Shown here piece by piece: positions 29,489-54,841 of a stretch of DNA of 59,706 nucleotides. The notes under the pieces are model-generated. The model did no database searches, had not been told where the DNA came from, and saw only the letters and a list, made by a program, of their open reading frames with translations. The stretch spans positions 1 to 59,706 of the forward strand of contig JABSSD010000121.1 in NCBI GenBank assembly GCA_013214575.1, written 5' to 3'. The DNA comes from Paracoccaceae bacterium. Lineage in GTDB: Bacteria; Pseudomonadota; Alphaproteobacteria; Rhodobacterales; Rhodobacteraceae. The translations under genes were made by a program, and so were the position numbers. The stretch's first letter is position 1, and each line of letters begins with the position of its first letter.

Positions 29489-30541
29489 ATGAAATTAAGT
29501 GTTGCGATTGTCGGGTATGGGAAAATGGGGCGTATTCGCCACCAGGCCATGGAGCGACATGGCGGGTTTGAGGTGGTTGCGGTCTGTGACACCCAGATAG
29601 ACCCAGAGGTGACTATTCCAATGGTTACCGATCCCCTGAAAATTTATGACTACAATCCCGACGTGGTGGTCTGCAGCATTCCCAATGTGATGGTCCCGGA
29701 TGTGGTGTGCGATGCGCTGTCACGGGGCAAACATGTGTTTTCCGAAAAACCGCCCGGGCGCAGTTCGCAGGATGTGCGGCGGATGCAGCGGGCCGAGGCT
29801 CAGAACCCGGCGCTGGTGCTGAAATTTGGCTTCAACCACCGGGTTCATGATGCCATCCAGGAAGCCAAGAAGCTGGTTGATGCCGGCATCATGGGCGATC
29901 TCTATTTCATGCGTGGCGTCTACGGCAAGGCGGGAGGCCCCAGCTATGCCCAGAACTGGCGCAACAATCCGGAGCAATCTGGCGGCGGCATCCTGATCGA
30001 TCAGGGTATTCACATGCTGGACCTGTTTTTAATGTTTGCCGGGCGCTTCTCCAATGTGCAATCCATTGTGCAGCGCAAATTCTGGACCGAAGTCCCGGTT
30101 GAGGATAACGCCTTTGCCCTGATGAAGACCGAGACCGGCATTGTCGCCTCGGTCCATTCCTCGGCCACGCAGTGGCAGCATACTTTCCGGCTGGAGCTCT
30201 ATATGCGCAATGGGTTCATCTCGGTGGATGGGATCCTCTCTGCTTCGGGCAGCTATGGCACCGAAGTTTTGACGGTGGCGCTGAACCGCATGGACAAAGA
30301 CGGCAACCCCACGCCAAATCCCGAAAGTCAGGAAACCCGCTTCACCCAGGACCAGTCCTGGGACAAGGAAGCCGCCGAGTTTTATGACGCCATCATTGGC
30401 ACCAGACCGGTGCGCTACGGCACCTCGACGCAGGCATTGGATGTGATGGAACTGGTGGAAGATATCTATGCGGCTGACCCCGAGTGGACTTCAGATCTGA
30501 AAGCCCGCACTCTGCAGGTCGCAGACGAGAGATCCGCATAA
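29489..30541 (+). CDS. Gfo/Idh/MocA-family sugar oxidoreductase
   Basis: 350 residues. N-terminal Rossmann fold with VAIVGYGKMGRIRHQAM, then the family motif SEKPPGRS (EKP) and LIDQGIHMLDLFLMF in the catalytic domain (GxHxxD with the active His). Oxidises or reduces a sugar or sugar nucleotide with NAD(P); the substrate is unknown. First gene of a compact operon: its stop TAA shares a base with the next start (TAATG). All key residues are present. Confidence 0.9.
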   Translation: MKLSVAIVGYGKMGRIRHQAMERHGGFEVVAVCDTQIDPEVTIPMVTDPLKIYDYNPDVVVCSIPNVMVPDVVCDALSRGKHVFSEKPPGRSSQDVRRMQRAEAQNPALVLKFGFNHRVHDAIQEAKKLVDAGIMGDLYFMRGVYGKAGGPSYAQNWRNNPEQSGGGILIDQGIHMLDLFLMFAGRFSNVQSIVQRKFWTEVPVEDNAFALMKTETGIVASVHSSATQWQHTFRLELYMRNGFISVDGILSASGSYGTEVLTVALNRMDKDGNPTPNPESQETRFTQDQSWDKEAAEFYDAIIGTRPVRYGTSTQALDVMELVEDIYAADPEWTSDLKARTLQVADERSA

Positions 30542-31512
30542 TGCATACCCCTGTTTTTCTGGACCATTTACCGGATATCACGTCGGTCTCAAGCCGCAAG
30601 TCCGAGCTGTACCGGCTGACCCGCAACAGGGCGTTGCTGGATCTGATGCTGGACGACCACACAAGCTGGCACCGGCGCGACTGCCCAGCCTGCGGTCAAC
30701 CTCGCATCAAAAGCAAGAGTTTCAGTCAGGCCCTGCTGCCGTTTCAACGCTGCACCGGCTGCAACACCATCTACGCCCCACGCCTGCCCAGTCAGCAGAC
30801 CCTGGATACCCTGCGTCTGGACACTGTGATTGATCACGACGAGGAGCAAAACCGAGATTTTGAGTTTACCTCATTGTTAAACTGGATCAGCCTGACCGAG
30901 GTGCGCAGTGAACGGTCGCTGGAGACGGTGCTGGATTACCGGTTCTCGGCTCAGGCCCCGGCCTGGCCCCTAACCGCGCAGCGGTTGACCCGCCACCGAA
31001 AGCTGACGTTTCTGCCGTTACAGGTCCAGTCAGAAGCTGAAAGCTATTGTGACCTACAACAGGCCTTGCAGGCGCAGGACCCCCGCGCCGTGCTGGTACT
31101 GGCAGAAATGGACCGGGTCGCCGATCCCGCCCTGTTGCTGCGCAGTATCCAGGAAAATGTGGCCAGGGGCACCCTGGTCTTTATTGCCACGTCCTGTGCC
31201 GACGGGTTGGAATATGAAATCCTTGGCGCCGATTCGCCCAGCTTCATCCCCCTGGATCGGTTGACTGTTTTTTCTGTCAGCGGCTTTGAAGCTCTGGCTC
31301 AAAAGCTGGGTTTCAACGTTCTTGAAGTCTCCACCCCCGGGCGTCTGGATGCGGTCATTCTTGATCAGTATTTCAAAGCAACCGAAAGCTCTGACATTCC
31401 ATTCTGGTCGAGCTTTTTCCGTGAGGCAGACAACAACAGGTTGCGAGACTTGCAAATCCTGCTGCAACGCAGCCTCAAATCCAGCGTAATGCGGTTTGTT
31501 CTCGAAACATAA
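30541..31512 (+). CDS. Methyltransferase-like protein with zinc ribbon and decayed SAM site
   Basis: 323 residues. A CPACG...CTGC zinc ribbon (about residues 42-80) as in sugar C-methyltransferases, then a class I methyltransferase-like fold. The C-terminal half matches well (VLVLAEMDRVADPALLLRSI, GTLVFIATSCADGLEYEILG, FSVSGFEALAQKLGFNVLEVSTPGRLD). Where the glycine-rich SAM loop should be, the protein reads TVLDYRFSAQAPAWPL, with no GxGxG. SAM binding is therefore doubtful and the protein may have a structural or binding role. It starts on the last base of the preceding stop codon, so it is co-translated with the oxidoreductase. Confidence 0.7.
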   Translation: MHTPVFLDHLPDITSVSSRKSELYRLTRNRALLDLMLDDHTSWHRRDCPACGQPRIKSKSFSQALLPFQRCTGCNTIYAPRLPSQQTLDTLRLDTVIDHDEEQNRDFEFTSLLNWISLTEVRSERSLETVLDYRFSAQAPAWPLTAQRLTRHRKLTFLPLQVQSEAESYCDLQQALQAQDPRAVLVLAEMDRVADPALLLRSIQENVARGTLVFIATSCADGLEYEILGADSPSFIPLDRLTVFSVSGFEALAQKLGFNVLEVSTPGRLDAVILDQYFKATESSDIPFWSSFFREADNNRLRDLQILLQRSLKSSVMRFVLET

Positions 31513-31529
31513 TCAGAAAGACCTCCACC

Positions 31530-32156
31530 ATGACTGCTCTTTTCCCAGCAACCCCATTTGACACCTGTGGCGCCTTTGCTTCGGAGTATTTCAATCAGCT
31601 CAGCGCAGCCGCGCAGGCCTGTGATCTGACTGCTCTGGACAAGATTTCCGCGTTGGTCAAAACAACCATCGACAACGGCAATTTCATCTACATCTGCGGC
31701 AATGGTGGCTCTGCCGGAATCGCCAATCATTCGCTCTGTGATTTTCTCAAATGCGTGCGCACAGATACCAACCTGAGGCCGCGGGTGATGTCGCTTGCAG
31801 CCCATACGGAAATGAACTCGGCTCTGGCCAATGATATCTCTTATGACGAGGTCTTTGCTTATCAGCTGACGTCAATGGGGCGGCCGGGGGATCTTCTGTG
31901 GACGGTCAGTTCGTCGGGAGATTCTCCGAATGTGGTGCGCGCCCTGGAAGTGGCCCGCGAGAACGGTCTGACATCGGTGTCTTTTACCGGATTTTCCGGC
32001 GGCCGCTCCCGCAAACTGGCAGATCTGAATGCCCACGTCGATGCGCAGAACTATGGTGTGGTCGAAGACATCCACATGAGCTTTATCCATATCATCACCC
32101 AATACCTGCGCCTCAGCCACATGGATCAGAGCCTGCTGGGACAGCGAAAATTCTGA
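31530..32156 (+). CDS. SIS-domain sugar-phosphate isomerase (GmhA-like)
   Basis: 208 residues. The phosphosugar-binding motifs ICGNGGSAGIANH and WTVSSSGDSPNVVRALE are intact, as is the C-terminal GVVEDIHMSFIHIITQYL characteristic of the sedoheptulose-7-phosphate isomerase group. Cytoplasmic aldose/ketose phosphate isomerase. It sits 17 bp after the methyltransferase-like gene and 1 bp before the phosphatase, a typical isomerase-phosphatase-nucleotidyltransferase order for making an activated sugar. The actual sugar may differ from heptose. Confidence 0.88.
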   Translation: MTALFPATPFDTCGAFASEYFNQLSAAAQACDLTALDKISALVKTTIDNGNFIYICGNGGSAGIANHSLCDFLKCVRTDTNLRPRVMSLAAHTEMNSALANDISYDEVFAYQLTSMGRPGDLLWTVSSSGDSPNVVRALEVARENGLTSVSFTGFSGGRSRKLADLNAHVDAQNYGVVEDIHMSFIHIITQYLRLSHMDQSLLGQRKF

Positions 32157-32157
32157 G

Positions 32158-32937
32158 ATGCTGTCGATAAGCCCCAACCTGCATCGCCAGCTGTGCGCCC
32201 TGCTGCCACGGCTCGCGGCCGAGATTTTCAGCGAGCGTTTTGACACCGATGCCAAAGGCAGCGACGGGCTGGATTTTGTCACCTCGATTGATCTAAAAAT
32301 GCAGGACCGGTTGACCACGATCCTGCCCGAGCTGCTGCTCGGGTCCCGCGTTGTCGGTGAAGAGGGTTTTTGCCAGACACAGGACAGCACCGCGCCGCTC
32401 TGGTTGGTGGATCCGCTGGATGGCACGGTGAACTTTGTCGCCGGTCTGCCCAGCTATGCCATTGCGGTGGTGCTAATCGACAACGGTCAACCCTGTCTGG
32501 CGGCGGTGCATGATGTACCCCATGGCATTACCTATTCCGCCATTGCTGATGGCGGGGCGTTTCGCAACGGGGCACCACTGGTGCGCCGCCAACACGACGC
32601 CCGTCTGGCCGTGCTCAGCTCGGGATTGCTACGGGATCTCTCTTGCCACGCCCCGGACAGGTTGGCACAGCTTCTGGCGCGCTACAAACTGCGCAACTTT
32701 GGCAGCCAAGCGCTGCATCTGTGTTATGCTGCTGCGGGCCATGTCAGCCTGGTGGCCAGCCGCGAGGCCAAAGGCTGGGATGATCTGGCTGGCGCGCTAA
32801 TTGCCCGCGAGGCTGGGCTGCAATATGGCCCTTATCATGGCTCGCAAGCGGCCATGGACGTGGATCAGTTCAGCCTTTGCTCGGACCCCGCAACCTTCGA
32901 AGCCCATGTGAGCGTATTCTCTGGATCCGTTCCCTAG
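32158..32937 (+). CDS. Inositol-monophosphatase-family sugar phosphatase
   Basis: 259 residues. Metal ligands are visible in VGEEG, DPLDGTVNF and GWDDLAGALIAREAG, the three IMPase motifs. A Mg-dependent, Li-sensitive type phosphomonoesterase acting on a small sugar or polyol phosphate. It lies between the isomerase and the cytidylyltransferase, so it probably removes a phosphate from the intermediate before or between activation steps. The start ATG immediately follows the stop of the isomerase. Confidence 0.9.
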   Translation: MLSISPNLHRQLCALLPRLAAEIFSERFDTDAKGSDGLDFVTSIDLKMQDRLTTILPELLLGSRVVGEEGFCQTQDSTAPLWLVDPLDGTVNFVAGLPSYAIAVVLIDNGQPCLAAVHDVPHGITYSAIADGGAFRNGAPLVRRQHDARLAVLSSGLLRDLSCHAPDRLAQLLARYKLRNFGSQALHLCYAAAGHVSLVASREAKGWDDLAGALIAREAGLQYGPYHGSQAAMDVDQFSLCSDPATFEAHVSVFSGSVP

Positions 32938-32966
32938 ACCTCCCCTGCAACAAGGACCCACTTGCC

Positions 32967-33635
32967 ATGAAAACCATTGCCATGATCCCCGCCCGCATGG
33001 GAAGCCAGCGTCTGACCAGAAAAAACTTACGCACCCTGGCCGGGCAGCCGCTGATCACCCATGCGATCGAGAAATGTCAGCGGGCCGGCTGTTTCAACGA
33101 AATTTACATCAACTCGGAGGATGCTGAGTTTAGCCAATACGCCGAGCAGTATGGGATCAAATTTTACCAACGCCCGGCTGAATTGGGCAACTCCACCGCC
33201 ACCTCTGAACAGTTTGTCTATGACTTCCTGAAACATGTCGACTGCGACCTGCTTCTACAGGTGCATTCCATTGCACCGCTGCTCAGCGCCAAAGAGGTCG
33301 AGGCCTTCACCAAGAGCTTCCTTGCCTCAGACGCCGATGTCATGATCGCCTGTATCGAAGACATGATCGAGGTTGCCTATCAGGATCAGCCCGTCAACTT
33401 CAGTTTTGCCACGAAGACCAACTCGCAAGATCTAAAACCCACCCAGCGCATCACCTGGTCAATCACCGGTTTTAAGGCAAAATCCTATATCAACGCGGTC
33501 GAGGCTGGTGAAATCGGCACCTACAACGGCAAGGTCTCCTTCTATCCGGTGAACCCGATCTCAGGCCATGTGATCAAAACCCAGCAGGATCTCGACATCG
33601 CCGAGGCACTGCTGGGCGTCATTGGCAGGACATAA
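32967..33635 (+). CDS. CMP-sugar synthetase-family cytidylyltransferase (NeuA/KdsB-like)
   Basis: 222 residues. Starts MKTIAMIPARMGSQRLTRKNL, the nucleotide-binding signature of acylneuraminate cytidylyltransferases, followed by LAGQPLITHAIEKC and LLLQVHSIAPLLSAKEVEAF (equivalent of the LQPTSPLR block, changed here to VHSIAPLL). Expected to couple CTP with a sugar or keto-sugar acid. The altered second motif and the absence of NeuB/NeuC-like genes argue against ordinary sialic acid. Start at ATG 32967 follows from the motif; the frame is open further upstream without similarity. Confidence 0.85.
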   Translation: MKTIAMIPARMGSQRLTRKNLRTLAGQPLITHAIEKCQRAGCFNEIYINSEDAEFSQYAEQYGIKFYQRPAELGNSTATSEQFVYDFLKHVDCDLLLQVHSIAPLLSAKEVEAFTKSFLASDADVMIACIEDMIEVAYQDQPVNFSFATKTNSQDLKPTQRITWSITGFKAKSYINAVEAGEIGTYNGKVSFYPVNPISGHVIKTQQDLDIAEALLGVIGRT

Positions 33636-33657
33636 AGCAGAAAAAAGGATTACGATA

Positions 33658-34584
33658 ATGAAGGTGCTTATCTCCAATATCATGATGCAGAACGAACGTG
33701 ATCGCTTTCACTCGATCCTCCGTGCCAAAGGCATAGACCCGGTCTGGCCCGAGGTTAACCAGTTCATGGATGAGGCCCAGTGTCTCGCGCAAGTCGGCGA
33801 GATCGACGGCTGGCTTGCAGGAGACGATCAGATTACCGAAAAGGTCCTCCAGGCTTCTCTGCCTCGGCTCAAGGTGATTTCCAAATGGGGCACCGGCGTC
33901 GATTCAATCGACTTGGACGCCGCCAAACGCCTGAACATTCCGGTGTGCAATTCTCCCGGTGCCTTTCGTGATGCGGTCAGCGAATATGCCATTGGTCTGC
34001 TGTTGGCGGCCACCCGACAACTGGCCCGCACTGACCGGATGGTGCGGCAGGGCGGCTGGCCCAAGGGACGGTTTCCGGGGCTGGCGGGCAAAACCATGGG
34101 GGTGGTCGGCTATGGTGCCATTGGGCAGGGGGTCGGCCAACGCGCCCGCGGACTTGGCATGCAGGTGATCGCCCATGATCCCTACCTGACCAGCACCCCA
34201 GATGGCGCCCCCCTTGTCAGCTTCGACCACGTGTTGCAGGAGGCCGATGTGATCTGCCTTTGTTGCAACCAGACCGCCGATAATTATCACCTGCTCAATG
34301 CCGAAACCCTGGCGCGCGCGCGCGATGGGGTGATCCTATGCAACGTGGCTCGTGGCGGATTGATTGATGAGGCTGCTCTGATCGAAGCCCTTGCCTCGGG
34401 AAAGGTGGGCGCTGCGGCGCTGGATGTCTTTGAAACGGAACCCTTGCCGCAGGACCATCCGTTGCTGCAGTTCGAAAATGTCGCCCTCTCCAGCCACAAT
34501 GCAAACAGCACCATAGAGGCGATCGAGTATGTCCATGCCAATACGCTTGATAACCTGCTCAAACACTTGCCCGGCAGATCCTGA
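33658..34584 (+). CDS. D-2-hydroxyacid dehydrogenase (phosphoglycerate dehydrogenase-like)
   Basis: 308 residues. NAD loop VVGYGAIGQGVGQRARGLG, and the catalytic triad is visible: Arg in CNVARGGLIDE, Glu in DVFETEPLP, His in SSHNANST. Reversibly oxidises a 2-hydroxy acid. As part of this sugar operon it probably acts on a sugar acid, not serine synthesis. ATG 33658 is used; an upstream in-frame start at 33622 overlaps the previous gene and adds residues outside the family. The next gene starts directly after its stop. Confidence 0.88.
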   Translation: MKVLISNIMMQNERDRFHSILRAKGIDPVWPEVNQFMDEAQCLAQVGEIDGWLAGDDQITEKVLQASLPRLKVISKWGTGVDSIDLDAAKRLNIPVCNSPGAFRDAVSEYAIGLLLAATRQLARTDRMVRQGGWPKGRFPGLAGKTMGVVGYGAIGQGVGQRARGLGMQVIAHDPYLTSTPDGAPLVSFDHVLQEADVICLCCNQTADNYHLLNAETLARARDGVILCNVARGGLIDEAALIEALASGKVGAAALDVFETEPLPQDHPLLQFENVALSSHNANSTIEAIEYVHANTLDNLLKHLPGRS

Positions 34585-36939
34585 ATGATGCATGGACAGG
34601 GAATAAAATACCGGCTTCAGGGCTATGTGCCGGGCTTTGGCAGGGCAGTCACCAACGCCTTTGACCTGCAAGCCTGGCGTCAGGGCTCGTCTCTGACCGC
34701 CTTTGGTGTTGAGCTGTTTGTCCACAGTGGGGCGGTGACCGTCAGCCTGCGTCACATCACACCGGGCGGGCACGATACAGAGTACTGCCAGCTTGACCGC
34801 CCAGACCCAGGTTCGACCTTCAGCCCGCCGATCTTTGTTGCAGACCTGGAGGGGATGTTACTGCCGGTGGTCGAGACGGTCTCGGAAGGAGCGGTCTTTG
34901 ATATCTTCTTTGGCACCAACGAGCTGCCGCCCTGCCCCCATGCCAAAACCGCCTTTATTCTGGATGGTCAGAGCTCCGACCAGGCGGTCGCGGCATTTAC
35001 CTCCTATCTGGAAGAGCATCAGTCGCATGGCTCTCGCCAGAACGCGCATCTGGTTATTCTCGACGGCCACAGCACCGCAAACCTGTCCCCCGACCCGGCA
35101 ATCAGCCGGATTGCCAATGATGGCACCAAGGGCATTGGCGCGGCGGGACGCGGGTTGTACGAGGTCTGCTATGGCAGCATGGCAGGCCAGGGGTTCACCC
35201 ACGGCTGCCTGATCCAGCAGATCCTGTACCTGCACCCAGAGATGTTTGCCCGAACAGTGGCTTTCATGCAGTTTATGCGCGACGGGATCCATATCAGCGC
35301 ACCGCTCTATCAGGCCGGACCTCCGCCCGGAGACCGTTGTCTGGATTTTACCGCGTCAGGGCCCCGCCTGCTGGAAGATATCCATCCGCAGGGAGATGGC
35401 ATTGGCGCGATGGAACTGGCCACTCTTGCAGCCACAGCTCAACACCAGCAGGCTACAGGCCGGTGGTGGTGCACGCTGGACCTGTGCGAGGTGCACCTTA
35501 ATGGTTTGCCCTATCCCTTCCTTGGCGGTGTGGACATGGCAGAGTATAGCACCCGGCTGCAACGGGCCGGATCACAACGGGTCACCCCCCTATCCTTCTG
35601 GGCGCAGCAGAATGGGTCACCAATGCCCACCAGTGACCTCAGGCAGATCCTGACCCTGCGCATCTTACAGGGCACTCTGAGCGATCCTGCGGCCCTAAAG
35701 CATGAGTTTGCCACCTTGGTGCTGCAACGCCTGACCGATCGAGATCCGGCGGCGGCGGCGGTCCTGATGGCGGAAATGAAGGTCTTTTTGGCGGGCCCTA
35801 GACAGATGCTGGCACAGGCCCTTGCCCCGGCAGCGCCCAGCCCGGCACCTCGCCCTCCCTGGCGAACCTGGCGGATGAAGCAACGGTTAAAACGGCAATT
35901 GCCTCAGCTGAATAGGATACCTGCCCTGATTCAGGCTTATAGCACCGCCCGCAACCACCTGGGCACGGTGGCCTATTGGTCCCAAACGGAAGGCAATCAA
36001 CCGCCCGCCACAACAGCCCTGGCTGAGTTACGCCAGACCCCTGATGTCCTGCAGTACCAACGGGACTTAATGGCGGTGCATCTCAAAATGGACAGGCTGC
36101 ACCGCACGCAGAAAAACGCCTGGACGCAGCAGATCCAGCGTTTGGAGGCGCAACTGCAGCACAATCATCTGCTGGACCCGGCGCGGGCCCATGCCGATCA
36201 GGACCGCGCCAGCCGAACCATGCTGAGCCTACTGCGCAATCGCCACGCCGGACGCCGTGCCTTTATCATCGGCAACGGACCCAGCCTACGAATCCCGGAT
36301 CTCGACCGATTGCAGGGAGAGGTCACTTTTGCCTCCAACAAGATCTACCTGGCCTATGAGGAGACCCGCTGGCGGCCGACCTATTATTCGGTCGAAGATC
36401 ACCTAGTGCTCCAGAACAACCGGGGGCGGATCCACGACCTGGAAGGCAGCATCAAGATCTTTCCGGCCAATGTACGCGACTTCGGATTTCACGCGGCGGA
36501 CACAATTTTTGTCCCCTTCCGCCCCCCCCGCTCCTTCGAGGACCCCCTGTCGGACCCAAATTTCCCCGATTTCAGCAGCGACTTGAGCCACGGCATCTGC
36601 TGGGGCTCCACCATCGTCTACAGCCAGATCCAGATGGCGATCCATATGGGCTGTTGCGAAATCTATCTGATTGGCCTTGACCATTCCTATCAACTCCCCC
36701 GCGTCAAACACGGCAACCAATACCTGCACGAGGGCGAGCAAAACCATTTCCACCCCGAGTACCGCGTTCTCGGCGAAAGATGGCATCAGCCAAACCTGGA
36801 GGTTCTGGAAGCCTCTTATGGCCGCGCCCGTGACTGTTGCGCCGCCCTTGGCGTGCCCATTTTCAACGCCTCGCGTAAAACCTGCCTTGATGCGTTTGAA
36901 CGCTTTGACTTCAATGATCTCTTTAACGAGCCCGAGTGA
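34585..36939 (+). CDS. GlfT2-like/DUF115 fusion protein with inactivated GT2 domain
   Basis: 784 residues, paralogue of the protein at 37878-40514. Beta-rich N-domain (1-115), GT2/GlfT2-like domain (about 120-345), helical linker, then a DUF115 domain with GNGPSL (563-568), PTYYSVEDHLV, GICWGSTIVYSQIQMA and EIYLIGLDHSY. In the GT domain the metal-binding DDD of the paralogue is IQQ (210-212), the later MDDVEY is VDMAEY and FWVLHDD is FWAQQNG. So that domain should be catalytically dead while the DUF115 domain looks intact. DUF115 occurs in Maf flagellin glycosylation proteins and resembles CMP-sugar (GT42) transferases, which fits the CMP-sugar synthetase upstream. Role: possibly a transferase through DUF115, or a scaffold for its active paralogue. 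Confidence 0.82.
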   Translation: MMHGQGIKYRLQGYVPGFGRAVTNAFDLQAWRQGSSLTAFGVELFVHSGAVTVSLRHITPGGHDTEYCQLDRPDPGSTFSPPIFVADLEGMLLPVVETVSEGAVFDIFFGTNELPPCPHAKTAFILDGQSSDQAVAAFTSYLEEHQSHGSRQNAHLVILDGHSTANLSPDPAISRIANDGTKGIGAAGRGLYEVCYGSMAGQGFTHGCLIQQILYLHPEMFARTVAFMQFMRDGIHISAPLYQAGPPPGDRCLDFTASGPRLLEDIHPQGDGIGAMELATLAATAQHQQATGRWWCTLDLCEVHLNGLPYPFLGGVDMAEYSTRLQRAGSQRVTPLSFWAQQNGSPMPTSDLRQILTLRILQGTLSDPAALKHEFATLVLQRLTDRDPAAAAVLMAEMKVFLAGPRQMLAQALAPAAPSPAPRPPWRTWRMKQRLKRQLPQLNRIPALIQAYSTARNHLGTVAYWSQTEGNQPPATTALAELRQTPDVLQYQRDLMAVHLKMDRLHRTQKNAWTQQIQRLEAQLQHNHLLDPARAHADQDRASRTMLSLLRNRHAGRRAFIIGNGPSLRIPDLDRLQGEVTFASNKIYLAYEETRWRPTYYSVEDHLVLQNNRGRIHDLEGSIKIFPANVRDFGFHAADTIFVPFRPPRSFEDPLSDPNFPDFSSDLSHGICWGSTIVYSQIQMAIHMGCCEIYLIGLDHSYQLPRVKHGNQYLHEGEQNHFHPEYRVLGERWHQPNLEVLEASYGRARDCCAALGVPIFNASRKTCLDAFERFDFNDLFNEPE

Positions 36940-36943
36940 ATTC

Positions 36944-45411: not shown

Positions 45412-46596
<1,185 letters not shown>

Positions 46597-46615: not shown

Positions 46616-47695
46616 TCATTCAGAGGTCATAGCTTTTGCTCGGATATTCTGGATATCCTTTTTCAGCCGCTCTGGGCTTTCGGCGACAAACTCCGCCATC
46701 AAATCCGCAAAAACATGTACACTGCTGATGACATCAGCCGTGAAATGGTCGGCTGCATTCAGCGATTGATCGTCGGTGGTGGCCTTCAGGTGGATCTTCT
46801 CCATTGCGTCCGACATGGGAGACCCCTCAAAGAAAATCTCATCCAGCGCCGCCGCATCCACCGCGTAACGCTCAATGAACTGATCCGCCAATACGGTTGG
46901 TATCCGCAATGTTTTACTGTTTTTTCCAAGCCCATTGGACTGCAAATGCTCTGCAACAATCCGCCCCAAAGCACTTTGTGCGTCTTTCACACGCGGACCG
47001 TTTCTGGGCCTCAATCCCTTATTCACCCGAATGTGCACTTCGCGGAGCAGTGACAACTGGCTCACCGTCAAAGATGTATTAGCGGACACAATGGTTCCCA
47101 GCTCAAAAGTCTCAGCCTGCAGCACAAATTTGAAAAAGTCAGCGACAACGTCGCTCCGGAATAATTGAGCGCGCACAAATGGCCGCAATTCAAACCGATC
47201 GCCAAATACCTCTCGCCACGCTTCAAATCGCGGTGTGTAATCGAACCTGCCGGTGTTTGTCGCCGCAAGAAAAGCCTCTTCCACTGTCGTCTTCATAGCC
47301 CCCAGCTTCACATGCTCAGAAAAACTGGATAAGAACTTATCCGCATGTGGTCGCACATAGGCCACCAGACGAACCCGGTCCGCCAGATCGGGCCAGTAGG
47401 TCTCTATGGCCTGGTGTAGCTCGTTCGGATCGACCATCTGAAAATGCTCAGCCGAGATAATTCCATAGTCTGCGTCGCTTTTTTGAAACGCGACATAGAT
47501 CTTTTTAAAAGCGGCAGCGCGATCCTCAAAGCGTCTTTTTCTAAACAGTGTCGCTGCAAGACCGTTGTGATTGAAACGGGTTGGATAGGTAAAAGATACC
47601 CCGGATGCTTTGCATATGTTGGAAGCTAAGGCCGATTGGATCGATGTTGACCCGGTTTTGGTATCACCCAGATGAATGATCAGTTCGTTAATCAT
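46616..47695 (-). CDS. Sulfotransferase-like P-loop protein
   Basis: 359 residues. LIIHLGDTKTGSTSIQSALASN is the PAPS-binding loop with its helix; VRLVAYVRPHADKFLSSFSEHVK is the 3'-phosphate motif. The middle and C-terminal parts share size and layout with the neighbouring sulfotransferase-like proteins but little sequence, so they are old paralogues or separate arrivals with different acceptors. Start ATG 47695 puts the loop at residue 6. It lies 31 bp upstream of glf on the same strand. Confidence 0.82.
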   Translation of the reverse strand: MINELIIHLGDTKTGSTSIQSALASNICKASGVSFTYPTRFNHNGLAATLFRKRRFEDRAAAFKKIYVAFQKSDADYGIISAEHFQMVDPNELHQAIETYWPDLADRVRLVAYVRPHADKFLSSFSEHVKLGAMKTTVEEAFLAATNTGRFDYTPRFEAWREVFGDRFELRPFVRAQLFRSDVVADFFKFVLQAETFELGTIVSANTSLTVSQLSLLREVHIRVNKGLRPRNGPRVKDAQSALGRIVAEHLQSNGLGKNSKTLRIPTVLADQFIERYAVDAAALDEIFFEGSPMSDAMEKIHLKATTDDQSLNAADHFTADVISSVHVFADLMAEFVAESPERLKKDIQNIRAKAMTSE

Positions 47696-47719: not shown

Positions 47720-48835
47720 TCAAAGCTCAGCGCTGGACTCTGCTTTCAGCGCGGTCAGAAAATCTCGGATCTCTGGTTCTTCAATGTCAGCCAGGCGTTG
47801 GGTAACCCCAGCTAGGGCCAGCCGGAACACCTCCATCTCGGGGATGGGCCGCAGGGTTTCCACCTGCGCCTGATCCTTGAAAAACGGCGCCTTGCCGCTG
47901 ACCTCTGCCAAGAAGGCATGGATGGGCTCAAACTGCTCTTGCATCAACTGCCGGTGCTGCGCCCCGAACAATTCGATATCAGCCGAGGCAGGCAAGCCCA
48001 GCTCCGGGGTCAGATCCTGCAAGTTCCGGCGCAACTCATTGGCCAGTAGTGGGCGCAGCGCCTTATTTCCCAGCCGGGCGATCTCGTAAAGACCGCGATG
48101 CAGCGATTGATTTGTCTTGCGCTCTTTGCTCAGACGGCGCGGGACTTTCAGCCCGGTTTGCGTGATGAAATCGGCCACCGATCCACCACTCTGGCGCACA
48201 TCACGATACTCACGCAGAATGAATCGCGCCTCGGGCATCCCCTGGATCCAGCCCTCCAGCATCAGCCGGTAATCAAAGTGGATATTGCCAAAATAACTCT
48301 GCGCCCCGGTGTCGCGCAGTGGCGCAGGTTTGTGGCCAAATTTCAGCCGCTGACCGTGCCAGGAGGCCAGATAGTCATCAATCCGCCGCAGGGTCGCGAC
48401 AACGGTAATGTCAGCCTCAGGAAAGATGTCGCGCAGGCGGGTGATCAGATCCGGGCTGGTGGGGGCAAAATTGGCAAAGACTTCGGCGGCCAGAATGACG
48501 GTGTGTGGAGCCAGGAATTCAACCTGTTTGCGGATCGCCCGGACCATCTGCCCCGTCGCGGGAAGCCCCTTGTGAAACGGCGGAACCTTGCCCTTATTGT
48601 GCTCGGCCAGCATCTTGAAGGCCAGCGCGTTATGCGGTTCGCGGGCGTTGATCGGCAGGCTCTCATCAGGGGTCTTGCCACTGATGGCAGCGGCCAGCAT
48701 CAGCGACATGCCTTCAAAATCAACGCTCGGGTATAATATGCCAGCCTGCGCCAAGGCCACACTGTTGCGGGATAAAAAGTCCTGCAACGAGGTTGAGCCC
48801 ACTTTATGGTGACCGATGAAAAGTATAATTTTCAC
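47720..48835 (-). CDS. Sulfotransferase-like P-loop protein
   Basis: 371 residues. IILFIGHHKVGSTSLQDFLSRN gives the PAPS loop near the N-terminus; ADITVVATLRRIDDYLASWHGQRLKFG the second site. First gene of the five-gene minus-strand group that includes glf. It is divergent from the third GlfT2-like gene, with a 228-bp region between them that should carry both promoters. Sulfate donor PAPS must come from the host, as no cysD/N/C genes are present. Confidence 0.83.
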   Translation of the reverse strand: MKIILFIGHHKVGSTSLQDFLSRNSVALAQAGILYPSVDFEGMSLMLAAAISGKTPDESLPINAREPHNALAFKMLAEHNKGKVPPFHKGLPATGQMVRAIRKQVEFLAPHTVILAAEVFANFAPTSPDLITRLRDIFPEADITVVATLRRIDDYLASWHGQRLKFGHKPAPLRDTGAQSYFGNIHFDYRLMLEGWIQGMPEARFILREYRDVRQSGGSVADFITQTGLKVPRRLSKERKTNQSLHRGLYEIARLGNKALRPLLANELRRNLQDLTPELGLPASADIELFGAQHRQLMQEQFEPIHAFLAEVSGKAPFFKDQAQVETLRPIPEMEVFRLALAGVTQRLADIEEPEIRDFLTALKAESSAEL

Positions 48836-49063: not shown

Positions 49064-50857
49064 ATGATCACCCTCCAGAACTTCATCTCTCCAGAACAGC
49101 AGGTCTGCACCGAACAGGCGCTGTATTTTCACGCCCAAGGCCCGGTTGGTTTTTCTCAGACTGAAGGTCGTTACCTGATGGGTCGCGGTGTCCGGCTCAG
49201 CTTTAATACCTACTTCAACCTGTTCAACCTCAGCAAATGGAATACCGGCTGTCAGCTGGATGGGCTGTTTGCAGAAATATCAGGCGCCGGTCAGGCCGAA
49301 ATCCGAGTCATCCATACGCAACAAGGCCAATCCTGTGAGGTGGTTCATTGTGAACTGACCCAGCTACAGGCCGACAGCCCATATGTTATTGACCTGTCAG
49401 AATTTTCCGGGGCCAAGATCGGGGGGCTGCTTTATGTTGAAGTGCTGGCGCTGGATGACAAGGTCAGCCTGACCCGCGCCCGGTTTGCCACAAACACGGT
49501 GCCCGAAACCCTGCCGCAGTTGGCGGTCTCGATCACCACGTTCAAACGCGAGGCCGAGGTGCGCAGAACGGTTGAACGCTTTGAGGCCTTCCTGCCCGAA
49601 TTTGAATTTGGCGAGCAGGTGCAAGTGCAAGTGGTCGACAATGGCAATAGCGCCGAGATCCAGGCCAGCAAGCAGGTCACGCCAATCATCAATCCCAATT
49701 ACGGCGGTGCTGGCGGCTTTGCCCGCGGGTTGCTGGAGGCGGAAAAATCCGGTGCCAGCCACTGTCTGTTCATGGATGACGATGCCTCGTTCCACATGGA
49801 AAATATCGTCCGCGCCTATATATTTCTGGCGTTGGCCAAGGACCGCAAGGCCGCCGTCTCAGGCGCGATGATCAACAATACCCACAAATGGGCAATGTGG
49901 GAAAATGGCGCCCATTTTGATGGCTCCTGTCATCCGCTGTTTTGTGGCACAGATTTGCGCGATCCCGATCAGGTCGTCAATATGGAGCTCATCTCGGCGC
50001 GCCAGTCTCCGGCCAACCTCTATGGGGGCTGGTGGTTCTTTGCCTTTGCCATCGATCAGGTCAAACATCACCCCTTCCCGTTTTTTGTCCGCGGCGACGA
50101 CATCAGCTTTTCGCTGATGAATGATTTTTCCATCACTACCCTGAACGGCGTGGTGTCGTTTCAGGATGATTTTTCCGCGAAAGAAAGCCCGCAAACCCTA
50201 TATCTGGACCTGCGCAACCATCTGATCCACCACCTGGTGGTCGACCGTTTGCAGCGCAGCGCCTTTGGCACCGCAAAAATCGCGCTGCGCTTTATCGCGC
50301 GCTCCCTGTTGCGGTTCCATTATGACTCTGCCGAAGCACAGTTGCTGGCTTGGCAAGACATGATGCGCGGCCCGGAATTTTTTGATGAAAACATCGACAT
50401 GGCCGCGCGCCGCGCGCAGATAAAAGCGCTGACTACAACCGAAGTCTGGCAAGACATCGACCCCAATACGGTCAAGCAACGTCACAAGTACACGCGACGT
50501 TCTGGCCACCGCCGCCATCGTCTGGGGATCTACAGCTTGAACGGGCACCTGCTGCCGCTATCTGCGCAGCGTTGGGACCGTATTATTCTGGAGATCGGCG
50601 AGCGTGGTCAGCTGCACCGGGCCTTTGGCGCCGCACAGATCACCTATCTCAACACCGCCCAGACCCAAGGCTATACGGTGACCCAGTCAAAGCGGCGGTT
50701 CTTTTCGATCTGCTGGCGCATGACCAAAACCTTGGTGCAGTTCCTGCGCGGCCATGACCCACTCAAGGCCACCTATCGCCAAGGCTATAATCGGATGACC
50801 AGCAAGAGCTATTGGCAGAAAAAACTATACAAATCTGAGGATTTGGCCGAGCTCTAA
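49064..50857 (+). CDS. GlfT2-like galactofuranosyltransferase-family glycosyltransferase
   Basis: 597 residues. N-terminal beta domain (about 1-145) as in GlfT2, then GT2 core: LAVSITTFKREAEV, VVDNGNSAEI, NYGGAGGFARGL, CLFMDDDASFHME (DDD 238-240), FFVRGDDISFSL. A helical C-terminal region (about 400-597) is shared with the two DUF115 fusion proteins (compare GYTVTQSKRR here with GYTVTRNSRR there), but DUF115 itself is absent. This is therefore the plain version from which the fusions could have arisen. With glf in the divergent operon it is the best candidate for building a galactofuranose chain. Confidence 0.9.
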   Translation: MITLQNFISPEQQVCTEQALYFHAQGPVGFSQTEGRYLMGRGVRLSFNTYFNLFNLSKWNTGCQLDGLFAEISGAGQAEIRVIHTQQGQSCEVVHCELTQLQADSPYVIDLSEFSGAKIGGLLYVEVLALDDKVSLTRARFATNTVPETLPQLAVSITTFKREAEVRRTVERFEAFLPEFEFGEQVQVQVVDNGNSAEIQASKQVTPIINPNYGGAGGFARGLLEAEKSGASHCLFMDDDASFHMENIVRAYIFLALAKDRKAAVSGAMINNTHKWAMWENGAHFDGSCHPLFCGTDLRDPDQVVNMELISARQSPANLYGGWWFFAFAIDQVKHHPFPFFVRGDDISFSLMNDFSITTLNGVVSFQDDFSAKESPQTLYLDLRNHLIHHLVVDRLQRSAFGTAKIALRFIARSLLRFHYDSAEAQLLAWQDMMRGPEFFDENIDMAARRAQIKALTTTEVWQDIDPNTVKQRHKYTRRSGHRRHRLGIYSLNGHLLPLSAQRWDRIILEIGERGQLHRAFGAAQITYLNTAQTQGYTVTQSKRRFFSICWRMTKTLVQFLRGHDPLKATYRQGYNRMTSKSYWQKKLYKSEDLAEL

Positions 50858-50889: not shown

Positions 50890-51543
50890 TCAGCTCAACT
50901 GCGCCTCATGCAAAGCGATTGCCTCCTCTAAGTCCTCGAAATACAACATCTTACCATGTTCCAGCACCACCCCGGCATTACAGAACTTACGCAGCTGCCC
51001 CATCGAGTGATTGACCATGATGGCGCTGGAGTGCTGCATCCGGTCTGCAAACAAAGCGCGGCTTTTGCGTTTGAACTGGGCATCCCCTACCGCCGTCACC
51101 TCATCCACCAGATAGGTGTCAAAACGGATCCCCATCGAGGCCCCAAAAGTCAAACGCGATTTCATCCCCGAGGAATAGCTGCGCATGGGCATGTGATAAA
51201 ATTTTCCCAGTTCGGCAAAGCTGTCGACAAATGCCACCAGATCATCGGTATCGACGCCATAGATGCGGGCAATAAAGCGCACGTTTTCGGCGCCACTCAG
51301 ATCCTTGTGAAACGAGGCACCCAGCCCCACTGGCCAGGAAATGCTGCCGTCGCTGATCACCCGGCCATGGTCCGGGCGCAGCGTGCCGGCGATGATCTCC
51401 AACAGCGTTGATTTTCCAGCCCCATTGCGCCCCAGCAGGGCCAGTGATTTCCCGGTTGGCAGGGTCAGGTTCAAATTGTCGATGACAATCTTGCGCTCCC
51501 CTTGCAACCAAAAGCTTTTGGTCAGGTTCTCAAATCGGATCAT
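50890..51543 (-). CDS. kpsT: Capsule ABC exporter ATP-binding protein (KpsT-like)
   Basis: 217 residues. Walker A LGRNGAGKST, signature YSSGMKSRL, Walker B TYLVDEVTAVGD and the switch His in IMVNHS. The short length without a C-terminal glycan-binding extension matches KpsT/CtrD rather than Wzt. ATPase of an ABC-2 polysaccharide exporter at the inner membrane. It follows kpsE on the same strand with 6 bp between them; the permease is just beyond, on the other strand. Confidence 0.94.
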   Translation of the reverse strand: MIRFENLTKSFWLQGERKIVIDNLNLTLPTGKSLALLGRNGAGKSTLLEIIAGTLRPDHGRVISDGSISWPVGLGASFHKDLSGAENVRFIARIYGVDTDDLVAFVDSFAELGKFYHMPMRSYSSGMKSRLTFGASMGIRFDTYLVDEVTAVGDAQFKRKSRALFADRMQHSSAIMVNHSMGQLRKFCNAGVVLEHGKMLYFEDLEEAIALHEAQLS

Positions 51544-51549
51544 AACAGC

Positions 51550-52947
51550 TCAGCTACGGTCACGGATAGAATAGTAAATCAGCGTCAGGATCGACCAGCC
51601 CAACAGCAGAAACAGCCCGACCAGCCCGGCCAAGATAAACCGCTGCGGATACTGCGAGTCCTCTGCCAGGGTTGGTGTAATATAGGTGGCCAGATAGCGG
51701 CTTTGGCGGGTGGCATCATCGCGGGCCACCTCAAGCGCCGTCAGGGCCGCACGATAGGCCGTTTCAGCATATTCCAGGTCCACATTCAGGCGCTCAAATT
51801 CAGAGATCAGCGATGGGTAATCCTCGCCCACAGCCCCGGTTTCGGTACTGGATGAGGTAAAGGTCTGACGCTCGATGGCGATGCGGTCGCGGATCACATC
51901 AATCCGCAGAAGCGCCTTTTTCAGTCGCGGATCCCCCTCTCTGACGCTGGCGCGCAGCAGGTCATGCTCAATCAGCGCCTCGGCCAGCTGCTGCTGCAGG
52001 TTATTCATCACGCCCATACGGCCCTGTATGTCGGCGTTTGGATCGACAATGCGGGTCCGGGTCCGAAACTGGGTCAGCGCCCCTCTGGCCCCCTTCAACC
52101 GCTCAATTGCTTCGCCAAGATCAGCTTGAGCATATCCCATCGCATCGTCGCGGGCCCGCGCATTCAAAGCGTTGATGCGGGTCTGGCTCTCTGCCACAAT
52201 CTCTCGGGTGACGGCCTGTGCCATCGCCGCGTCAAACGCCACCACCTGCACCTCGATCAACCCGGAGGAGCCATCATAGGACATGCTGACCACCCGCTGC
52301 CAATACCAGACCAGATCTTCGAGGCTGGCATCCGGCCACAGCGAAAAAGCCCAGTCATCGGGCCAGCGCTGCGCATAATGCGCCTTCAGGCCCAAGCGTG
52401 CATCGACAATTCTGGCCATTTCTTGACTTTGAATGAACTCATAAAGGATATCGCTGTCCGAGGCCGCGTTACCTCCGGCAAATTGGGCCAGCCCGCCCAG
52501 CAGATCATTGGCACCACTGCTTTCCTGACTGCGCACGGTAAAGCCGACAGTGGAAATATATTGATCCCCGGCCACGGTCCACAGATAGAGGCTCACCGCC
52601 ACCAATGGTGCCAGCACCATCAGGAAAAAACCAGCCAATAGCCCCCAGTGGCGTTTTTTCATCTGCGCCGGGCTCGCAATGGGCGGCAGCGACATGGAAG
52701 AGACCCCTGCTTGCAGCTGCGGCGCCCCTTCAGACAGTGCCAAAGCTTTGGCCGCCTGTCTCTGTTTACGACGCTGATTGTTGCCCTTACCGCCCCGCCT
52801 GTTCTGCCTCTCCTCTGACACTAGGAGCGGCACATTGCCATCTGCCCTCGCGCCCTCGTCTACAGCCGGTCCGGCCTGACCTGCGGATGCGCCCGCCTCA
52901 TCCGACAGTGATCGTTTCCGGTCCGGGGAAGAATCGCCCTGGTTCAT
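51550..52947 (-). CDS. kpsE: Capsule export inner-membrane/periplasmic adaptor (KpsE-like)
   Basis: 465 residues. A polar, low-complexity cytoplasmic N-tail of about 95 residues rich in Arg, Gln and Gly, then a transmembrane helix (HWGLLAGFFLMVLAPLVAVSL), a long periplasmic part with YISTVGFTVRSQE and coiled-coil stretches, and a second helix near the C-terminus (FILAGLVGLFLLLGWSILTLI). This is the PCP-type KpsE/CtrB build. It should bridge the KpsM/T exporter to an OPX channel such as the lipoprotein at 5979-7094. The long charged N-tail is more than KpsE usually has. Confidence 0.9.
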   Translation of the reverse strand: MNQGDSSPDRKRSLSDEAGASAGQAGPAVDEGARADGNVPLLVSEERQNRRGGKGNNQRRKQRQAAKALALSEGAPQLQAGVSSMSLPPIASPAQMKKRHWGLLAGFFLMVLAPLVAVSLYLWTVAGDQYISTVGFTVRSQESSGANDLLGGLAQFAGGNAASDSDILYEFIQSQEMARIVDARLGLKAHYAQRWPDDWAFSLWPDASLEDLVWYWQRVVSMSYDGSSGLIEVQVVAFDAAMAQAVTREIVAESQTRINALNARARDDAMGYAQADLGEAIERLKGARGALTQFRTRTRIVDPNADIQGRMGVMNNLQQQLAEALIEHDLLRASVREGDPRLKKALLRIDVIRDRIAIERQTFTSSSTETGAVGEDYPSLISEFERLNVDLEYAETAYRAALTALEVARDDATRQSRYLATYITPTLAEDSQYPQRFILAGLVGLFLLLGWSILTLIYYSIRDRS

Positions 52948-53037
52948 ATCGTTTGGTCCTGGCGTTCAGCCGTTTGTAATTGGCTTTGGTTTCTTTCATA
53001 CTATGGCGTGCTAATGTCCGCATCACAATGGTATTTC

Positions 53038-53859
53038 ATGGTCAGAACGTCCTCGGTAGTCCCGCCTGCTCAGCTCCCTAAACATCGCGGCAAACGTCGT
53101 TTTGCCACTCTGCGCAGCACCCTTGCTCTGGTGCTGCGCGAGATGTCGACACGCTATGGCCGCACACCTGGGGGCTATATCTGGGGCATTCTGGAACCAC
53201 TGGCCACCATCATCTTTCTCAGCTTGGGGTTTGCCCTCGTGTTGCGGTCGCCATCTCTGGGCACCAGCTTCCTGCTATTCTATGCGACCGGCTATTTACC
53301 CTTTAACCTCTACGGGACCCTATCCGGATCCGTCGCCAGTGCCCTGAAATTTTCCAAACCGCTGCTGCAATACCCTGCTGTCACCTGGTTGGATGCGGTT
53401 ATGGCACGGTTTCTTCTCAACAGCCTGACCAACCTTCTGATCACGGCATTGCTGCTCACCGGCATCCTGCTAGTCATCGGCAGTCGGTCCGTTCTGGATC
53501 TGCCAGTGATTGTGCTGGCGATGGCCCTGTCAATGGTGCTGGGACTGGCGGTGGGCGTTCTCAACTGCGTATTGATGGGACTTTTCCCAATGTGGACAGT
53601 GATCTGGGGCATTGTTACCCGGCCGCTGTTTCTGGCCTCGGGGGTGATCTTTATCTACGATGACCTGCCGCCACAGGCGCAGCAATTGCTGTGGTACAAC
53701 CCACTGATCCATATCACCGGGCTAATGCGCACTGGGTTTTATTCCACCTACAGCCCCGCCTACATCAACCTCACCTATGTGCTCGCCATCAGCCTGACGC
53801 TGCTGACCATGGGGTTGCTGTTGCTGCGCCGCTATCACCGGGTCATTCTGAACCGCTAG
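53038..53859 (+). CDS. kpsM: Capsule ABC exporter permease (KpsM-like)
   Basis: 273 residues from ATG 53038. ABC-2 permease with six predicted helices; the N-terminal block ALVLREMSTRYGRTPGGYIWGILEPLATIIFL is the KpsM/CtrC signature. Forms the inner-membrane channel with KpsT. It is divergent from kpsE (90 bp between), an unusual split of kpsM from kpsT/E. ATG 53014 and GTG 53008 are also in frame; no start has a strong ribosome site. Its 3' end overlaps the convergent GT2 gene by 17 bp. Confidence 0.92.
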   Translation: MVRTSSVVPPAQLPKHRGKRRFATLRSTLALVLREMSTRYGRTPGGYIWGILEPLATIIFLSLGFALVLRSPSLGTSFLLFYATGYLPFNLYGTLSGSVASALKFSKPLLQYPAVTWLDAVMARFLLNSLTNLLITALLLTGILLVIGSRSVLDLPVIVLAMALSMVLGLAVGVLNCVLMGLFPMWTVIWGIVTRPLFLASGVIFIYDDLPPQAQQLLWYNPLIHITGLMRTGFYSTYSPAYINLTYVLAISLTLLTMGLLLLRRYHRVILNR

Positions 53860-54841
53860 ACCCGCCCTCATCCGCCAACGCCAAGACATTGCCGTGCGAC
53901 CGGCCCAGACGCCGGCCCAATCCGTCACCAATGGCCCGCCAGGTCAGCCGCAGAAAAGCGCGCCGCTCGCCGCGGTGATGGCGCACCTTGAGGATCCACT
54001 TCGGCAGCACCACCAGCAGCACCGGCCAGAACAGCCAGCCCGCCGCCATCCGGTACAGCAACAGCAGATTGCGGTGATAATAATAGGCCTTCCACAACGG
54101 CAGGAACCGGCCCCTCTGACCGGCAAAGGTCGACAGGTCATGTTCAAAACGCACCCCCGGTTCAAAACCGATGCGCCCCCCCGCCTTGGTCAGCCCCAAA
54201 GTATAAAGCCCGTCATCACCGTAGATGAACAGGCTGGCGTCAGGATAACCCGCCAAATGCACCGCCCGGCGCGAAATGAAAAATCCGACAAAAGAGGTCA
54301 CATCAATTTGCATCCCCGGCCCCTGATAGTCCTCGGGAGTCACATGAAACCCAGAACGCCCGCCACCAAACAGGGTGCGCCAGAACTCGCGGCGATGCCA
54401 AAACGGATTGCGCGAGGGGCGGTTCATCTCGCAGATTTCGCCACTCGGGAAATACACCGCCGCCGCCACCGCATCCCAGCGCGGCTCTGGCAGCGCGTGA
54501 AAGGCCGCCAGCCCATCCGGAGCCGGGCGACCGTCATCATCCATCACCACCAGCCAATCCGGATCATAGGCCTGCATGGCATGGCGCATCCCCCTCTCGA
54601 ATCCGCCGGCACCACCGATATTGACATCGTTTCTCAGCACCAACAACCGCGGGTCCGTCTGCGCCGCCAGCCAGGTGCCGGTGCCGTCGGTCGAGGCATT
54701 ATCCACCACCACCACCGCCGCCAGATGCGCCACCGGACTGTCGAGCAGCCGCGCCAGTGTCACCTGCAGCTTGTCCAGCCGGTTGTGGGTCACCACCACC
54801 GCCACCAGGTGACTGCATGAAGTTGGGTTTGGCAGTGGCAT
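53843..54841 (-). CDS. Glycosyltransferase family 2
   Basis: 332 residues. GT-A fold: VAVVVTHNRLDKLQVTLARLL, VVDNASTDGTGTWL, NIGGAGGFERGM, WLVVMDDDGRPAPDG (DDD metal site), SLFIYGDDGLYTLGL. A hydrophobic stretch near the C-terminus (AAGWLFWPVLLVVLPKWIL) suggests membrane association. This is the Rv3782/GlfT1-like type often found with galactofuranosyl transferases, so it might prime the chain; that is inference. ATG 54841 is used; upstream codons to 54961 lack similarity. Confidence 0.88.
   Translation of the reverse strand: MPLPNPTSCSHLVAVVVTHNRLDKLQVTLARLLDSPVAHLAAVVVVDNASTDGTGTWLAAQTDPRLLVLRNDVNIGGAGGFERGMRHAMQAYDPDWLVVMDDDGRPAPDGLAAFHALPEPRWDAVAAAVYFPSGEICEMNRPSRNPFWHRREFWRTLFGGGRSGFHVTPEDYQGPGMQIDVTSFVGFFISRRAVHLAGYPDASLFIYGDDGLYTLGLTKAGGRIGFEPGVRFEHDLSTFAGQRGRFLPLWKAYYYHRNLLLLYRMAAGWLFWPVLLVVLPKWILKVRHHRGERRAFLRLTWRAIGDGLGRRLGRSHGNVLALADEGGSSGSE

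Follow-up and report, generated by a model that had tools for sequence, protein, structure and literature searches.

What kind of surface glycan, if any, is encoded by the large gene block on contig JABSSD010000121.1 of the Paracoccaceae bacterium assembly GCA_013214575.1? The window, meaning the whole stretch of 59,706 nucleotides that was analyzed, is an entire contig (C26) of a 5.59-Mb draft genome, and the block lies at positions 29,489 to 54,841. It contains a UDP-galactopyranose mutase gene (glf), relatives of galactofuranose (Galf) transferases, six sulfotransferase-like genes, an acyltransferase domain, a cytidine monophosphate (CMP)-sugar cassette and KpsM/T/E-type exporter genes. The original prediction, made from the letters alone, took these to specify a sulfated, Galf-containing surface glycan, and the analysis confirms these genes where they had been placed (Table 1). 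Judged from sequence, a sulfated, Galf-containing exported glycan is indeed the most likely product. More specifically, we read the block as the variable locus for glycan synthesis on a biofilm plasmid of the Roseobacter RepA type, which would make a surface polysaccharide that contains Galf, sulfate and a CMP-ulosonate-derived acid and is exported by an ATP-binding cassette (ABC) transporter. We give this reading a probability of about 0.62.

The presence of Galf in the product is very probable on grounds of homology. Glf matches its family over its full length and above the curated cut-off, its best solved relative is a UDP-galactopyranose mutase (2bi7, E 1.6e-178, residues 3-386) and its gene is the sole match in the genome. 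There are four Galf-transferase-like genes in the block. The GlfT2-related protein combines a Glft2_N domain with a DDD-type glycosyltransferase (GT) site. Both GGAGGF and DDD are present in its alignment, and its three PDB matches, all distinct sequences, are Galf transferases (best 4fix, E 8.6e-20). Because its score for GlfT2_domain3 (PF19320) is 19.5 bits and the cut-off is 27, we call it a GlfT2 relative and not a member. The GlfT1-like protein also falls below the equivalog cut-off of its model (73.8 against 330 bits). The other two genes encode fusion proteins, one with an intact and one with a degenerate GlfT-like half (see below).

Is the product sulfated? Probably, as far as sequence and modeling can suggest. 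The genome encodes an adenosine 5'-phosphosulfate kinase, which would supply the donor 3'-phosphoadenosine 5'-phosphosulfate (PAPS). All six sulfotransferase-like proteins have an R-x7-S site, although so short a pattern also turns up at other places in some of these proteins. A script detected a P-loop-like motif in five, and in the acyltransferase fusion it was read by eye. ST2, ST3, ST5 and ST6 (Table 1) have the P-loop, the Arg/Ser 3'-phosphate site and a sulfotransferase fold (one protein modeled), and belong to one divergent family that resembles carbohydrate sulfotransferases by profile and predicted fold. None of them reaches a curated Pfam sulfotransferase cut-off, and ST2, ST5 and ST6 have no Pfam match at all, even at E 10. 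Pfam mostly fails to recognize this family: at E 0.01, Sulfotransfer_3 is found in two and Sulfotransfer_1 in one of its 25 aligned members. One further observation concerns the Pfam-recognized sulfotransferase at 40643-41644, whose C-terminal end apparently runs on in another frame, through either a sequencing error or a real frameshift.

The surroundings of glf were also compared in other genomes. The background sample comprised 198 genomes of the same family, 38 of which carry a window-type glf (the own genome included), and the DNA around glf in the other 37 was examined for about 10 kb per side, less at contig ends. Of 141 matches to the divergent family in these 37 genomes, 23 (in 12 genomes) lie within 10 kb of glf, where about 0.7 would be expected. 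This is an enrichment of about 30-fold, but the profile was built partly from glf neighbors and glycan genes cluster anyway, so that the p-values are not to be taken literally. At least one family gene is near glf at 12 of 37 loci, compared with 3 of 80 loci chosen by their cytidylyltransferase (p 5e-5); against only the 15 closest of the latter (2 of 15) the difference is not significant (p 0.30). In the genomes of those 15 loci, 27 of 41 matches are within 10 kb of glf, spread over nine genomes. The family is common in the sample, with a match at E 1e-10 in 37 of the 38 glf genomes and up to 20 per genome. What if the proteins sulfate a lipid, a protein or a small molecule and leave the glycan unsulfated? 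Sequence cannot reveal the acceptor of a sulfotransferase, and the family is scattered, with 118 of the 141 matches not within 10 kb of glf. Nevertheless, ST5 is closest in fold to heparan-type sulfotransferases, as many as five family copies are grouped next to glf, and ST5 homologues adjoin glf on Phaeobacter and Leisingera plasmids. Acceptors other than a glycan are quite unlikely.

Export would follow the ABC capsule route. Homologues of KpsM, KpsT and KpsE are in the block and KpsS/KpsC-type genes are elsewhere in the genome, where two open frames on contig C95 exceed the cut-off of Capsule_synth (PF05159) and flank an OPX-like frame named by eye (OPX, outer-membrane polysaccharide export). 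The KpsM- and KpsE-like proteins score below the curated NCBIfam cut-offs (Table 1). Three biofilm-type plasmids encode homologues that share 83-85% identity with the KpsT-like ATPase. The 37 glf neighborhoods contain KpsT-like genes in 17 cases, KpsE-like in 18, KpsM-like in 14, GT2 in 19 and GlfT2-like in nine.

What stands out most is the CMP cassette, which seems to do without an aldolase, together with its GT42-like transferase domain. Incorporation of a CMP-ulosonate into the product is reasonably likely from the gene content. The pathways to CMP-activated 3-deoxy-D-manno-oct-2-ulosonic acid (Kdo) and nonulosonic acids include SIS isomerase, phosphatase and CTP_transf_3 steps. The cassette differs from them in that no aldolase was found and that a Gfo/Idh oxidoreductase and a 2-hydroxyacid dehydrogenase are there instead. 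Its cytidylyltransferase reaches no named equivalog cut-off (PseF, 78.8 against 205.7 bits; KdsB models also below) and matches the CMP-Neu5Ac synthetase 1qwj at 9.4e-28. The 2-hydroxyacid dehydrogenase, the MhpD-like hydratase, the CMP synthetase and a YhcH/DUF386-type protein found at seven of 80 related loci (one representative tested) are all consistent with a 2-keto sugar acid and give the prediction a concrete form. The methyltransferase-like protein that accompanies the cassette shows a conserved motif of the STPG.LD type, and its S-adenosylmethionine-site region is poorly preserved.

How widespread is this arrangement? A tblastn survey covered the best 80 of 187 relatives of the cytidylyltransferase, with loci of 3.5-20.7 kb, nine of them under 10 kb. 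The hydroxyacid dehydrogenase is present at 68 of the 80, Gfo/Idh at 57, the phosphatase at 54, SIS at 50, a match to the GT-MptE fusions at 48, the hydratase-like gene at 25, the methyltransferase-like gene at 21 and the lactonase SMP-30 at 16. The 15 closest (L016-L030) come from Rhodobacterales and have cytidylyltransferases 72-82% identical to that of the window. Among the 65 beyond them the hydroxyacid dehydrogenase is found 53 times, Gfo/Idh 42, the phosphatase 39, SIS 35, GT-MptE 33, the hydratase-like gene 11 and the methyltransferase-like gene six. The loci span Alphaproteobacteria, Verrucomicrobiota, Hydrogenedentota, Planctomycetota, Chloroflexota and others. In Sinorhizobium fredii five of the six cassette genes are matched close together (all but the methyltransferase-like one), as are five of six in Paenibacillus (all but the phosphatase). 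A NeuB- or KdsA-like aldolase is matched at none of the 80 loci (KdsA by a single query). As a control, five of six NeuB queries each recovered the remaining five NeuB loci (29-43% identity), and the sixth, apparently mis-framed, found one. In sequence terms, the CMP cassette forms a unit shared across phyla in which no aldolase is detected. A nonulosonic acid made through NeuB was considered and rejected, as there is no NeuB match in the own genome or at the 80 loci. That the route as a whole dispenses with an aldolase is a prediction we would lean somewhat against.

Could the product be ordinary CMP-Kdo, or a close relative, made by the KdsA-type synthase of the genome itself, with the cassette serving only for tailoring? 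The cytidylyltransferase weakly matches KdsB models, three of the enzyme families (SIS, phosphatase, cytidylyltransferase) have their parallels in the Kdo pathway, and a KdsA-type gene does exist. This gene, the only PF00793 match in the genome, adjoins a second KpsE-like gene (C40:60911-62768), which hints at another capsule locus. Against a Kdo product, the closest sequence relatives of the cytidylyltransferase are CMP-Neu5Ac synthetases, the survey found neither aldolase nearby (KdsA by one query), and the Kdo route includes no Gfo/Idh or hydroxyacid dehydrogenase. We consider this explanation improbable.

The transferase that may use the activated acid is the second half of a fusion protein. 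In the intact fusion (37878-40514) a GlfT-like domain precedes an MptE-like domain, which scores 37.9 bits for PF01973 in the whole protein and 40.9 as an isolated domain (cut-off 34.6). The degenerate fusion (34585-36939) reaches 27.9 bits, below that cut-off. All 25 MptE domains in alignment A8 match PF01973 at E<=0.001. The domain appears to resemble the CMP-using Maf and GT42 (CstII) transferases by profile and fold, and here it is joined to a GlfT-like GT domain. This fusion suggests a single enzyme for adding Galf as well as a CMP-activated acid. By motif, an intact fusion is paired with a GGAGGF-less one at six of the 15 closest loci (L016, L018, L019, L020, L021, L024). L017 has only the intact form, five loci have only the GGAGGF-less form (L022, L023, L025, L027, L028), and neither is recognized by motif in frames above 500 residues at L026, L029 and L030. 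Conservation of the pair across genera suggests a non-catalytic role for the GT-like half of the first protein. The MptE domain of that protein keeps GNGPSL despite the loss of GGAGGF and DDD.

Perhaps such losses mean that the locus has partly decayed and makes something simpler. The motif-free GT half, the out-of-frame end of the first sulfotransferase and the degenerate methyltransferase-like gene would all agree with this. On the other hand, the core genes are open frames, and the GGAGGF-less fusion is seen again, by motif, at 11 of the 15 closest loci, which shows that this form is maintained. Decay is decidedly unlikely.

Do the cassette and glf belong together? A window-type glf occurs in 14 of the 15 closest cassette genomes and in 38 of the 198 background genomes (p 7e-9, with kinship not corrected for and at least one genome, Albibacillus, in both sets). 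At 11 of the 15 loci a glf match is on the cassette contig itself, 4-21 kb away; at L029 the same-contig match is only partial, with the complete copy on a different contig. These figures make the combination a recurring type of locus rather than an accident of neighborhood. Several observations do not fit so well. All six cassette genes recur, with 65-85% identity and in unchanged order, on a Leisingera aquaemixtae M602 plasmid (NZ_CP081063), where KpsM-GT-ugd is nearby (across the start of the record) and neither half of the record matches glf. Of the 65 loci farther out, only two (L061, L074) have glf close to the cassette. The glf-in-genome test covered the 15 closest loci, and the Rhodobacterales loci L049, L081 and L087 are more distant than these. 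On a separate matter, SMP-30 is at all 15 of the closest loci but only one of the others, which weakens the case for a universal lactonase step.

These points raise the alternative that the plasmid specifies at least two separate glycans, with glf, the GTs and the Kps genes forming one capsule and the cassette and MptE proteins modifying another target, such as a protein in Maf-like glycosylation. The rarity of glf near the more distant cassettes favors this, as does the fact that the best structural match of the MptE domain is a Maf glycosyltransferase. It sits less well with the presence of glf in nearly all of the closest cassette genomes, mostly with a same-contig match, and with the joining of MptE to an intact GlfT-like half, which is seen in the window and (by motif) at seven of the 15 closest loci. 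We regard separate glycans as unlikely. Independent shuffling of cassette and glf in Roseobacters, as the M602 plasmid might suggest, was rejected on the same 14 genomes that carry both.

How might a single polymer be made? Glf would first form UDP-Galf, a step with strong homology behind it. The GlfT1- and GlfT2-like enzymes and the GlfT-like half of the intact fusion would add Galf, although only their families, and not their specificities, follow from homology. The cassette (28281-34584) and the lactonase would meanwhile produce a CMP-activated 2-keto sugar acid without an aldolase. A possible order is the GmhA-like isomerase, Gfo/Idh oxidation, opening of the lactone, oxidation at C2 by the 2-hydroxyacid dehydrogenase, dephosphorylation and CMP activation, with both order and substrates conjectural. 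The MptE/GT42-like half of the intact fusion may then add the acid, so that, going by fold and fusion, a Galf-acid repeat could be the work of a single protein. Decoration of the chain might fall to as many as six PAPS-dependent sulfotransferases, one of which carries a fused O-acyltransferase, as their folds and motifs suggest. The KpsM/T/E-like proteins and OPX would export the chain attached to a lipid-linked primer of the KpsS/KpsC type, whose genes are elsewhere. A bolder version is speculative, and we think it rather doubtful. It holds that the cassette is an unrecognized cross-phylum oxidative CMP-ulosonate pathway (isomerase, Gfo/Idh at C1, 2-hydroxyacid dehydrogenase at C2, phosphatase, CMP synthetase), that Roseobacter GlfT/GT42-like fusions polymerize the acid with Galf, and that the divergent enzymes sulfate the chain. 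If true, it would be a plasmid-borne bacterial counterpart of the sulfated acidic glycans of algae or animals.

Table 1. Genes of the window discussed in the text, in order of position.
Feature	Position	Strand	Basis or remark
RepA replication initiator (RPA family)	243..1262	+	PF10134, E 1e-98
rmlC-rmlB-rmlD-rmlA, dTDP-L-rhamnose operon, as on biofilm plasmids	1358..4684	+	TIGR01221, TIGR01181, TIGR01214, TIGR01207, all over cut-off
OPX protein	5979..7094	-	Poly_export 50.3 bits; SLBB
MhpD-family 2-keto acid hydratase-like protein	28281..29075	-	profile A5 against PDB: 2-keto-4-pentenoate hydratase, 2.3e-32
Gfo/Idh/MocA sugar oxidoreductase	29489..30541	+	PF22725, PF02894, PF01408
Zinc-ribbon protein, degenerate methyltransferase-like domain	30541..31512	+	PF13489 22.6 bits, below cut-off 27; alignment A6
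SIS isomerase, GmhA (phosphoheptose isomerase)-like	31530..32156	+	SIS_2; 5ltz 1.9e-23; TIGR00441 below cut-off
Inositol-monophosphatase-family sugar phosphatase	32158..32937	+	PF00459 131.8 bits
CMP-ulosonate-synthetase-like cytidylyltransferase, no named subfamily	32967..33635	+	CTP_transf_3
D-2-hydroxyacid dehydrogenase	33658..34584	+	PF02826, PF00389
Degenerate GlfT-like domain fused to MptE/GT42-like domain	34585..36939	+	GGAGGF and DDD lost
SMP-30/gluconolactonase-like lactonase	36935..37819	+	PF08450 205.6 bits (on longer frame 36671-37819)
GlfT-like GT domain fused to MptE/GT42-like domain	37878..40514	+	GGAGGF and DDD intact; proposed bifunctional polymerase
Sulfotransferase (Sulfotransfer_1)	40643..41644	+	PF00685 38.4 bits, cut-off 22
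Divergent sulfotransferase-family protein ST2	41793..42707	+	A4 family
Divergent sulfotransferase-family protein ST3	42769..43803	-	PF13469 (Sulfotransfer_3) 21.9 bits, below cut-off 27; A4 family
Sulfotransferase-like N-terminal part fused to hexapeptide acyltransferase	43884..45356	-	PF00132; R-x7-S
glf, UDP-galactopyranose mutase	45412..46584	-	PF03275 261.9 bits, cut-off 26.3
Divergent sulfotransferase ST5, adjoins glf	46616..47695	-	homologues beside glf on Phaeobacter, Leisingera plasmids
Divergent sulfotransferase-family protein ST6	47720..48835	-	A4 family
GlfT2-related galactofuranosyltransferase	49064..50857	+	Glft2_N PF17994 29.9 bits, cut-off 26.1
KpsT-like ABC ATPase	50890..51543	-	PF00005 (ABC_tran)
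KpsE-like export protein	51550..52947	-	TIGR01010 (KpsE subfamily) 208 bits, cut-off 437.5
KpsM-like permease	53008..53859	+	PF01061 (ABC2_membrane); NF050053 84 bits, cut-off 300
GlfT1-like GT2 glycosyltransferase	53843..54820	-	NF050113 73.8 bits
UDP-glucose dehydrogenase-family protein (UDP-GlcA supply)	55257..56579	+	PF03721, PF00984, PF03720
ParA partition ATPase	57899..59299	-	AAA_31

What carries this block? The plasmid location given in the original prediction is borne out by RepA, ParA and an exact terminal overlap of 141 bp. The identical ends, together with an RPA-type repA close to one of them and parA close to the other, make it probable that the contig is a whole circular plasmid of about 59.6 kb. 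An RPA-type RepA, a matching ParA and an rml operon lie on one replicon, as in Roseobacter RepA-type biofilm plasmids, and the plasmid is related to the 65–70-kb "biofilm plasmids" of Phaeobacter. Two Parasedimentitalea plasmids encode proteins that share 97.6% and 94.4% identity with its ParA, and the pPGA1_65 protein shares 88%, which makes a Roseobacter the probable host. The plasmid also encodes a sugar transferase, YjbH, YjbF and OPX. The stretch 15413-25599 encodes three calcium-binding proteins of the RTX type, one of which has an M10 peptidase-like domain, and such proteins are also encoded on other biofilm plasmids. A transposase-like gene at 21914-23279 seems to be split over two frames, with helix-turn-helix domains in frame 22572-23279 and none found in frame 21914-22702; it may be an insertion element. 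An FG-GAP repeat protein with an ASPIC/UnbV domain (25532-27778) has a 66% identical match about 8 kb from glf at L148. The rml operon, the fusion of GT42-like and Galf-transferase-like domains and the cross-phylum spread of the cassette without a detectable aldolase were absent from the earlier account.

Is the combination without precedent, as was first suggested? pPGA1_65 of Phaeobacter inhibens DSM 17395 (NC_018288) and pGal_F69 (NC_023142) share ParA, rfbABCD, OPX, ugd, a GT, KpsM/E/T-like genes, type I secretion and RTX-type genes with the window, and their glf is 83-84% identical. Each has an ST5-like gene (32%) annotated as hypothetical beside glf, one annotated sulfotransferase and two matches to the sulfotransferase-family profile. 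In the stretches compared (49,946 of 65,245 bases of pPGA1_65 and 40,000 of 68,752 bases of pGal_F69) nothing scores above 60 bits against the CMP cassette, the GlfT2-like gene or the GT-MptE fusions, and genes for GDP-fucose and mannose are there instead. A Leisingera caerulea M561 plasmid (NZ_CP081066) shares the order ugd-GT-KpsM-KpsE-KpsT-GlfT2-ST6-ST5-glf but differs after glf, where genes for GlcNAc/ManNAcA (glmU, glmS, glmM, wecB, wecC) replace the cassette. A one-off combination is thus rejected, given such near relatives on named plasmids. In the accessible part of one report, the ABC-type group 3 capsule (kps) clusters TBA_4-10 of E. coli are described as plasmid-borne in some cases, with rml genes in five of seven, and as a set are predicted to include UDP-Galf, CMP-sugar, acetylase and sulfotransferase genes; that part does not state that a single cluster holds them all, nor does it mention a GT-MptE fusion (PMC10433991). 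The original prediction therefore stands for the linkage on one plasmid of UDP-Galf supply, Galf-transferase relatives, a carbohydrate-sulfotransferase-like fold (one protein modeled) and an ABC exporter, but not for its lack of precedent. As pPGA1_65 already has glf, the exporter and a sulfotransferase, the kind of locus is known, and that of the window is a biofilm-plasmid capsule locus with an added battery of sulfotransferases and a CMP-sugar cassette. In the literature searched we found no description of the cassette or of the chemistry of the plasmid-encoded polymer, although the biofilm-plasmid papers (Frank, 2015; Michael, 2016) may already mention these genes. Titles and abstract openings among the matches listed gave no case of Galf with sulfation in Roseobacters or of a bacterial sulfated Galf polymer.

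Biofilm plasmids affect attachment in a major group of marine bacteria. Loss of attachment has reportedly followed curing of the 65-kb plasmid of P. inhibens, going by the title of a cited reference. Deletion of rmlA-D on the same plasmid reduces attachment, according to the accessible part of another report (PMC11481893). For such plasmids the present locus offers a predicted composition, namely Galf, sulfate and an acidic CMP-sugar, and it points to a sulfotransferase family mostly missed by Pfam and to a widespread CMP-sugar cassette.

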